This document shows, piece after piece, positions 20,617 through 61,389 of a stretch of DNA of 64,000 nucleotides (positions within the stretch are counted from its first letter, which is position 1; each line of letters starts with the position of its first letter). A program made the translations under genes and the position numbers. The notes below the pieces were generated by a model. That model was given only the letters and a program-made list of their open reading frames with translations. It made no database searches and had not been told where the DNA came from. The stretch comes from Yaniella halotolerans DSM 15476 (lineage in GTDB: Bacteria; Actinomycetota; Actinomycetes; Actinomycetales; Micrococcaceae), in NCBI RefSeq assembly GCF_000420805.1, contig NZ_ATVQ01000001.1, positions 1,488,001 through 1,552,000 of the forward strand, given 5' to 3'.

Positions 20617-21315
20617 GTGCCCGAAACACAACATGCCAAAGGGCAGTTCCAAGGAACCTTCGCACCGATTAGTTCCCATATTTATCCTGTGCTCTTTGCC
20701 ATCATGGCCGTGGTCTTTATCCTGTCGAATATAGGTGCAGCCAAGGGTGTACAAATTGGGCCGTTGCTCACCGACGGCGGATTCTTCTTATTCCCGGTGG
20801 CGTACATCGTCGGCGACATCATCTCCGAGGTCTACGGTTTCAAAGCCTCTCGACGGGTCATTTACACCACGTTTCTGATCGCAGCATTCGCATCGCTGAC
20901 CTACTGGATTATCATTATCCTTCCGCCAGCCGAATTCTATGATGGCCAAGAAGCGCTGATCCGTACTCTCGGGCCAGTCCCGCTGATTGTGCTGGCATCG
21001 CTGGTTGGATTTTTCGTGGGGCAACTCTCCAACGCCTGGATCATGGTGGCCATGAAGCGTCGCAGTGGCGAACGATACCTCTTCGGGCGGATCGCAGCAT
21101 CCACGGTGGTGGGTGAATTACTGGATACCATCGCGTTTTCCGCGATCGCGGCCACTGTCATCGGCATCGAGACCTTCGGCCAGTACGTCGTGTTCGTGCT
21201 CATCGGATGGGTCTGGAAATTCACCGTGGAGATCGTCTTGGCACCGGTCACCATGTGGACGATCCGTAAAATTAAGGTTGCTGAACCACACTACGGCACC
21301 GTCACCGGCGATTAA
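20617..21315 (+). CDS. yhhQ: Queuosine precursor transporter (YhhQ family)
   Basis: A 232-residue protein with about six helices, matching the YhhQ/QPTR (DUF165) family. Marks are SNIGAAKGVQIG, DIISEVYGFKASRRVIYTTF, FFVGQLSNAWIMVAMKRR and LLDTIAFSAI. The family imports 7-deazaguanine precursors (preQ0/preQ1 or queuine) for tRNA modification. The start is GTG 20617 with AAGGA upstream. The tgt gene, which uses such bases, lies 1.4 kb away and in convergent orientation. Confidence 0.9.
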   Translation: MPETQHAKGQFQGTFAPISSHIYPVLFAIMAVVFILSNIGAAKGVQIGPLLTDGGFFLFPVAYIVGDIISEVYGFKASRRVIYTTFLIAAFASLTYWIIIILPPAEFYDGQEALIRTLGPVPLIVLASLVGFFVGQLSNAWIMVAMKRRSGERYLFGRIAASTVVGELLDTIAFSAIAATVIGIETFGQYVVFVLIGWVWKFTVEIVLAPVTMWTIRKIKVAEPHYGTVTGD

Positions 21316-21339: not shown

Positions 21340-21369
21340 TTGCCTTGTTCGCAAGAATCTGGTTATGTA
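21340..21369 (+). promoter_or_regulatory. Promoter for the SAM-IV riboswitch transcript
   Basis: TTGCCT at 21340-21345 and TATGTA at 21364-21369 are separated by 18 bp. A start near 21375 would put the riboswitch P1 stem at the 5' end of the RNA. Confidence 0.4.
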
Positions 21370-21377
21370 AATCAACA

Positions 21378-21500
21378 GAATCACGAGTGCTGATCAATGA
21401 AGCCCTGGCTGATCAGCCAGCAACCCTCTTGTCATAGTGGGGTGCTCCAGATGATGATTCGGCTGAGTCCGAACGTTCTCAGCAAGTATGGCGCCGTGCG
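21378..21500 (+). ncRNA. SAM-IV riboswitch
   Basis: S-adenosylmethionine aptamer of the actinobacterial SAM-IV class. P1 pairs GAATCA (21378-21383) with TGATTC (21455-21460). P2 pairs CTGATCA with TGATCAG around a loop containing CCCTGG. CTGG in that loop can pair with CCAG (21447-21450), the SAM-I/IV pseudoknot. The conserved core CAGCAACCCTC...GTGGGGTGCTCC is present, and a downstream hairpin (GCTGAG/CTCAGC, 21462-21483) follows. From memory, both the order and core bases match the mycobacterial SAM-IV RNA. It precedes a flavin monooxygenase start by about 45 nt. Confidence 0.88.
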
Positions 21501-21543
21501 CGGACGATGTTCTGGCGACGCCACGATCATTTCAGGAGTCTGC

Positions 21544-25175
<3,632 letters not shown>

Positions 25176-46112: not shown

Positions 46113-46200
46113 CGGTAGCGGAGGGATTTGAACCCTCGGTACGGGGTTGCCGTACAAAGCATTTCGAGTGCTTCACCTTCGGCCGCTCGGACACGCTACC
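46113..46200 (-). tRNA. tRNA-Ser(CGA)
   Basis: An 88-nt class II tRNA with a long variable arm. The acceptor stem is GGTAGCG/CGCTACC with G73, and the anticodon loop CTCGAAA gives CGA, reading UCG. CCA is not encoded. Confidence 0.93.
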
Positions 46201-51616: not shown

Positions 51617-51690
51617 CGCGCCCTAAGGGATTCGAACCCCTGACCTTCTGTTCCGTAGACAGACGCTCTATCCAGCTGAGCTAAGGGCGC
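51617..51690 (-). tRNA. tRNA-Arg(ACG)
   Basis: A 74-nt cloverleaf with acceptor stem GCGCCCT/AGGGCGC and G73. The anticodon loop CTACGGA gives ACG, whose A34 is the TadA substrate. CCA is not encoded. Confidence 0.94.
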
Positions 51691-61297: not shown

Positions 61298-61389
61298 TGG
61301 CGGAGGCGGGGGGATTCGAACCCCCGGTCCGCGTTTAAACAGACCCTTCATTAGCAGTGAAGTCCAATCGGCCTCTCTGGCACGCCTCC
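61298..61389 (-). tRNA. tRNA-Ser(GCU)
   Basis: A class II tRNA with a long variable arm. The acceptor stem is GGAGGCG/CGCCTCC with G73 and an encoded CCA. The anticodon loop CTGCTAA gives GCU, reading AGC and AGU. Confidence 0.93.

Follow-up and report, generated by a model that had tools for sequence, protein, structure and literature searches.

A predicted SAM-IV riboswitch ahead of an SfnB/DszC-type flavin monooxygenase gene in the Micrococcaceae

Judged by sequence and comparison, bases 21379–21494 of the window (the whole 64,000-nucleotide stretch of DNA that was analysed) are an authentic SAM-IV riboswitch, found ahead of a gene for a flavin-dependent monooxygenase of the SfnB/DszC type. 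The riboswitch probably switches this gene off at high SAM, within one regulon that also includes metY-metX and a flavin reductase encoded at a separate locus. The comparisons below support the aptamer, both of its pseudoknots, the gene family and the conservation of the regulon. If the proposed control is correct, SAM sensed by RNA would decide when reduced flavin is spent on organosulfur compounds in these actinobacteria. Repression of desulfurisation by sulfur sufficiency would then be directly testable in this family, where the sensor would be known and the gene set defined.

A flavin monooxygenase is an unusual but sensible target for SAM-IV. Reported examples precede the gene for O-acetylhomoserine sulfhydrylase in Mycobacterium avium (PMC3774663), cg1478 in Corynebacterium glutamicum (PMC3890552) and, as a prediction, an aminotransferase class V gene in Streptomyces clavuligerus (PMC8269248). 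The M. avium and C. glutamicum riboswitches share with the one described here the whole covariance model, the core, PK-1, PK-2, P5 and an actinobacterial host, but the target in the window differs, being a flavin monooxygenase. The main text of a regulon survey that includes 13 SAM-IV sites contains no reference to a monooxygenase or to sulfonate (PMC3766115). A literature search, with the founding SAM-IV paper (Weinberg 2008) and supplements outside its coverage, found no paper tying SAM-IV to monooxygenases.

The aptamer, its leader and the gene downstream

Scanned with Rfam over its full 64 kb, the window matched RF00634 (SAM-IV) at 21379–21494 (+) with a score of 83.8 bits (E 1.8e-13) and an alignment covering the full length of the model (1–116 of 116). 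The gathering score is 38, and the SAM-IV call made earlier in a sequence-only reading is upheld. This was the sole riboswitch match in the window, the remaining Rfam matches being three tRNAs. SAM-I or SAM-I/IV identity was ruled out, as the scan retained SAM-IV alone at the site. The features of the region are as follows, with the promoter-like region, helices, core and pseudoknots read from the letters.

20617–21315, on the flank opposite tgt: gene for a Vut_1 queuosine-precursor transporter (profile matches)
21340–21345 and 21364–21369 (+): promoter-like region, TTGCCT and TATGTA with an 18 nt spacer
21379–21494 (+): predicted SAM-IV aptamer, RF00634 (covariance model; core AGCAACC..GGTGC)
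21379–21382 and 21456–21459 (+): P1, AAUC with GAUU
21389–21395 and 21411–21417 (+): P2, GCUGAUC with GAUCAGC
21404–21408 and 21447–21451 (+): PK-1, CCUGG with CCAGA, four of five pairs
21419–21425 and 21441–21445 (+): core, AGCAACC and GGUGC
21432–21436 and 21487–21491 (+): PK-2, UCAUA with UAUGG, five of five pairs, one of them G-U
21462–21467 and 21478–21483 (+): 3' hairpin P5, GCUGAG with CUCAGC (also from the Rfam alignment)
21534–21538 (+): Shine-Dalgarno sequence AGGAG, found in eight of nine leaders (AGGAA in that of locus L018)
21544–22788 (+): gene for an SfnB/DszC-type flavin-dependent monooxygenase, 414 aa (Pfam, NCBIfam, PDB relatives)
46113–46200, 51617–51690 and 61301–61389 (-): three tRNA genes (Rfam scan)

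In the alignment and the letters, the P1, P2a/P2b, P3 and P5 helices and the GCAACC/GGUGC core are all present, including the P1, P2, core and 3' hairpin that the sequence-only reading had named. Its loop pseudoknot CTGG/CCAG falls inside PK-1, which joins the P2 loop to the strand ahead of the 3' side of P1. PK-2, which it did not name, is complete, with the strand in the P3 loop pairing with the strand after the last hairpin. An equal layout of P1, P2a, P2b, P3, P5, PK-1 and PK-2 was seen by cryo-EM in a mycobacterial SAM-IV (PMC6890682). The first pair of PK-1 in the window is a C-A mismatch, and this strand pair was unique among 128 usable sites.

A Shine-Dalgarno sequence downstream of the aptamer had also been proposed, and was found 39 nt after it, with the ATG (21544) 49 nt after the aptamer. 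The in-frame ATG at 21397, which opens a 463-aa frame, was rejected as the start because it is inside the aptamer, whereas the nine aligned leaders all retain the Shine-Dalgarno sequence and the start at 21544. A promoter upstream of the aptamer is plausible from the letters. The region just ahead, suggested previously, has its TTG in all nine of the aligned orthologous leaders and a -10-like TAnnTA in six, but a consensus promoter scan did not list 21340–21369, and the one promoter-like site that it returned sits inside the aptamer.

The product of the downstream gene contains Pfam Acyl-CoA_dh domains. The top NCBIfam model was SfnB (TIGR04022), with 251.1 bits over residues 18–396 of 414, and the second was DszC (NF043015), with 115.4 bits. 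The protein falls under both curated cut-offs (430.9 and 850 bits, respectively) and the family names are therefore approximate. Its best sequence relatives in the PDB were 8cda, TdsC, MsuC and DszC. An AlphaFold2 model from 37 sequences had a mean pLDDT of 88.0 and a pTM of 0.90. In the PDB fold search, ranks 1–27 were all MAB_4123, TdsC, DszC or MsuC chains (E 4.5e-23 to 2.1e-20), followed by a putative acyl-CoA dehydrogenase (E 1.5e-17), and lower-ranked matches included nitrososynthases and other monooxygenases. Loci L033 and L058 were excluded from the 37-sequence alignment because their match spans contain stops; each of the 37 sequences in it matches the SfnB model and the DszC model at 1e-10. 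H373 is invariant in all 37 and H85 is kept in at least 90% of them. Both align with histidines of TdsC, and we take them to be catalytic active-site histidines. Profile, sequence and predicted fold, though below the curated cut-offs, agree in placing the target among the DszC/TdsC/MsuC-type flavin monooxygenases of the acyl-CoA dehydrogenase fold, in line with the DszC/SfnB-like monooxygenase of this fold that had been proposed from the sequence.

Each of the known enzymes differs from the window protein in some respect. SfnB (TIGR04022) has in common with it the best profile and a sulfur context, but the window gene has a queuosine transporter gene and tgt as its neighbours and is not part of a sulfone cluster. 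DszC, TdsC and MsuC share the fold (TM 0.81–0.86 by query length), 23–26% identity and the two histidines, whereas in the window genome the oxygenase and reductase genes are apart, each with its own SAM-IV. The closest solved structure by both sequence and fold is MAB_4123 of Mycobacterium abscessus (PDB 8cda), which is 28–29% identical to the window protein and is itself named just a probable monooxygenase.

At their 3' ends, the monooxygenase gene and tgt, which lie on opposite strands, share 38 bases (22751–22788, as called). With Vut_1 on one flank and tgt on the other, queuosine genes enclose the sulfur gene. The closest named homologue among the matches listed was that of Enteractinococcus helveticum (79%), where the order is MFS transporter, Vut_1 queuosine-precursor transporter, SAM-IV, monooxygenase and opposite-strand Tgt, with one additional frame ahead of Tgt, the genes of this locus being assigned by resemblance to the window proteins. 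On this likeness, Enteractinococcus (Micrococcaceae) is the most likely genus of origin of the window. Loci L033 and L034 have the gene order of the window plus one extra frame before tgt. In L014 and L033, which belong to one member of the genus, there appears to be an interruption of the monooxygenase frame close to its start; the long frame opens only after the conserved start position, and the L033 match span contains stops.

SAM-IV sites in the genus and the family

The window genome has three SAM-IV sites: one ahead of metY, with a metX-like gene next in line, one ahead of the window gene and one ahead of a flavin reductase gene. The nine genomes of the genus hold 32 sites in total. With the target class taken as the nearest downstream tblastn match, nine of these precede metY, nine a flavin reductase gene, 13 an ACAD-fold monooxygenase gene and one an LLM gene; one of the 13 (L012) is less certain, as the contig ends about 600 nt downstream and the match is 234 nt away. 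In all nine genomes, metY, the flavin reductase gene and the orthologue of the window gene are each under SAM-IV.

Elsewhere in the family, 31 further genera were sampled with one genome each. They yielded 112 matches, of which 110 were above the cut-off and all 112 were examined. In 18 of these genera, SAM-IV was found no more than 200 nt before a gene for a flavin reductase or an ACAD-fold or LLM monooxygenase, the LLM enzymes being of the NtaA/DmoA type. When the genus is included there are 144 sites, and the targets are metY (37), flavin reductase (24), ACAD-fold monooxygenase (16), SufS-like (9), a rhodanese then a MetY-like enzyme (8), LLM (7), MetX-like (5), an MFS transporter then LLM (4), MetQ-like lipoprotein (4) and OsmC-like (4), together with three singletons and 23 sites without a classified gene. 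Family names were assigned from representatives of the classes. That of the MetX-like class matches the alpha/beta hydrolase profile alone and presumably represents MetX; that of the MetQ-like class matches the NlpA lipoprotein profile, and we assume that it represents MetQ. In a wider sample of the family (Micrococcaceae), SAM-IV was present in 394 of 395 genomes. On these comparisons, the predicted switch in the window is part of a family-wide pattern and is kept across the examined genomes of its genus.

Relatives of the monooxygenase numbered at least 552 in named genomes, and the best 80 were kept, their loci reaching at most 2.5 kb from the match in each direction. SAM-IV was found in four of these loci. 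L033 and L034 have it directly upstream of the gene, and two Citricoccus records have it at another place in the locus, in one of them before an LLM-like gene. In the other 76, eight of which are actinobacterial, Rfam found no SAM-IV within this range, and the enzyme family is therefore wider than its SAM-IV control.

The sequence-only reading had suggested that SAM status controls the scavenging of organosulfur compounds. The regulon supports this, as the reductase has its own SAM-IV in all nine genomes of the genus and LLM or ACAD-fold monooxygenases are under SAM-IV in other genera too. When SAM is low, reflecting a shortage of methionine and hence of sulfur, homocysteine synthase, the oxygenase and the flavin supply would be made together, and the oxygenase with its separately encoded reductase would take sulfur from organosulfur compounds. 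We infer both this partnership and the class of substrate. In Rhodococcus qingshengii, proteomics found higher levels of MetY and MetE when cultures contained dibenzothiophene (PMC8557817), and in Gordonia an sfnB region was proposed to take part in desulfurisation (PMC9861168); the word riboswitch was found in neither.

Candidate switching mechanism and alternatives

In known SAM riboswitches SAM represses, and by analogy it is likely to repress the monooxygenase gene. We infer SAM binding, its direction and a translational mechanism of the following kind. SAM-IV would start the mRNA of the FMNH2-dependent monooxygenase, and plentiful SAM would turn the gene off. SAM would stabilise P1 and PK-2, which would occupy the UAUGG of the tail. 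With the tail occupied, GACGCC downstream would be available to GGAGUC at the Shine-Dalgarno sequence, and their pairing would block translation. Without SAM, UGGCG of the tail would pair with CGCCA, leaving the Shine-Dalgarno sequence free; this pairing would exclude PK-2. The two candidate helices are:

21489–21493 and 21519–21523 (+): proposed SAM-free helix, TGGCG with CGCCA (both strands in nine of nine leaders; consensus fold)
21517–21522 and 21535–21540 (+): proposed SAM-bound helix, GACGCC with GGAGTC, five of six pairs (GACGCC in eight of nine leaders)

The nine orthologous leaders keep the tail CAAGUAU(U)GGCG, the CGCCA segment and, around the Shine-Dalgarno sequence, AGGAGUCU, with the exceptions that L018 differs in AGGAGUCU and L021 is without GACGCC. 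The segment CGACGCCA can pair with both the tail and the Shine-Dalgarno sequence, and 34 of 1000 shuffled linkers score as well. The metY leader follows an equal logic in other letters, with 29 of 1000 shuffles as good. For seven other orthologous leaders (L014 was left out), the shuffles as good per 1000 were between 10 and 40 in four, 128 in L020, where the tail is misregistered in the shared-segment score, 514 in L021 and 691 in L018. Scores were obtained for 102 of the 144 sites, with variant sites, very short linkers and leaders lacking a called start dropped, and 32 of them were in the best tenth where 10.2 were expected (metY 17 of 36, ACAD 7 of 12, reductase 2 of 22, LLM 1 of 6). The signal is thus weak or missing in three of eight individually scored orthologous leaders (L018, L020 and L021) and, taken as classes, in the reductase and LLM leaders. 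The complementarity in these letters supports Shine-Dalgarno hiding in part. Fold energies gave no clear switch in the window, where the value for an unpaired Shine-Dalgarno sequence was 0.71 with the tail free and 0.59 with it blocked; in 13 ACAD leaders the means were 0.52 and 0.50, respectively, with the value lower in three and higher in two. No terminator-like site was found between the aptamer and the Shine-Dalgarno sequence in the window. Given this and the complementarity, and despite the flat folding, translational control by hiding of the Shine-Dalgarno sequence is on balance taken as the most likely mechanism.

It is rather unlikely that SAM-IV instead stops transcription, whether by an intrinsic or a Rho-dependent route. 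The 39 nt in question offer no terminator-like site for this, the anti-Shine-Dalgarno segment is kept in eight of the nine leaders and the shared-segment score of the window exceeds that of most shuffles, although Streptomyces clavuligerus is reported to make a premature transcript that contains a predicted SAM-IV (PMC8269248), a weak hairpin resembling a terminator and ending in a T-rich tail lies over the start codon (21538–21554) and the folding lends Shine-Dalgarno hiding no clear support. A degenerate riboswitch or a chance likeness, with the monooxygenase gene not under its control, would fit the C-A pair that opens PK-1, the sole such strand pair among the usable sites. It is nevertheless highly improbable in view of the covariance score, the presence of every helix, the complete PK-2, the position of the aptamer upstream of the orthologous gene in all nine genomes of the genus and the distance from aptamer to start, which is 37–52 nt in the eight orthologues with a called start.

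The switch may also be real and the enzyme serve a purpose other than sulfur scavenging, acting for example on a non-sulfur substrate or in thioether detoxification. The scores under the curated SfnB and DszC cut-offs leave room for this, as does a fold that also includes nitrososynthases and other monooxygenases, but the best neighbours by profile, sequence and fold are organosulfur enzymes or MAB_4123, and metY/metX, LLM monooxygenases, flavin reductases and MetQ-like lipoproteins are found in the same regulon. We regard this explanation as improbable and retain SAM-repressed organosulfur scavenging as the preferred one.

Pseudoknot covariation and aptamer subtypes

The two strands of each pseudoknot were compared across the 144 sites with strands re-dealt between sites, a control that ignores relatedness. 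PK-1, usable in 128 sites (16 were unparsed and left out), had eight distinct strand pairs and was 97.5% paired, against 86.9% when re-dealt, the observed pairing also being the highest value of 2000 re-dealings. PK-2, usable in 117 sites (27 left out), had 47 distinct pairs and was 85.1% paired, against 63.1 ± 2.3% when re-dealt with a maximum of 71.9%. Within the 16 ACAD sites (15 usable), PK-2 was not above the control (86.7% compared with 85.1%). Judged from these alignments, the strands of both PK-1 and PK-2 change together across the family.

The metY SAM-IV sites of Micrococcaceae have GGUC at the start of P1 and CG at the end of PK-2, whereas the window aptamer has AAUC and UA. We grouped the sites by target into a scavenging group (reductase, ACAD, LLM, MFS, MetQ and OsmC; 59 sites) and a biosynthesis group (metY, metX, SufS-like and rhodanese; 59 sites), both groupings being our own. 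The PK-2 loop strand ended in UA in 52 scavenging sites and in CG in none (six other, one unread), and in CG in 57 biosynthesis sites and in UA in none (two unread). P1 was AAUC-like in 57 of the 59 scavenging sites and GGUC/AGUA-like in 58 of the 59 biosynthesis sites. Outside the genus of the window, the ratio of UA to CG was 29:0 in the first group (seven other or unread) and 0:48 in the second (two unread).

This split may reflect tuning to different SAM levels, or just two old aptamer lineages. A more speculative reading, which we hold only tentatively, is that SAM-IV in Micrococcaceae forms a two-tier controller, with the GGUC/CG subtype on methionine and SufS-like genes and the AAUC/UA subtype on scavenging oxygenases, reductases and uptake. 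Different SAM thresholds would then order biosynthesis and scavenging in sequence and couple the oxygenase and reductase loci in trans. The clean division of subtype by target also provides natural material for studying what determines the threshold of a riboswitch.

Two further forms of the aptamer were seen. A SAM-IV subtype with AGUA in P1, before a rhodanese gene and then a gene for a MetY-like enzyme, was found in eight of the 31 other genera (L183, L195, L200, L218, L220, L224, L236 and L247). A SAM-IV-like variant, with P1 mostly CUUC and a swapped core pair (CCAACC..GGUGG in place of GCAACC..GGUGC), scored 37–77 bits and was found at 21 sites in 14 of the 31 other genera (L217, L221, L222, L227, L231, L234, L235, L237–L246, L248, L249, L253 and L254); none of the three sites in the window genome is of this type. 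The variant aptamers precede genes without a clear sulfur link. At 12 loci, one of which (L250) is not a variant, a frame of 88–147 aa starts between -2 and 20 nt after the aptamer. These frames form one blastp-linked group, with no Pfam match in the seven of 12 scanned and no NCBIfam match in the eight of 12 scanned. The type with CUUC and the swapped core is possibly a variant riboswitch with another ligand.
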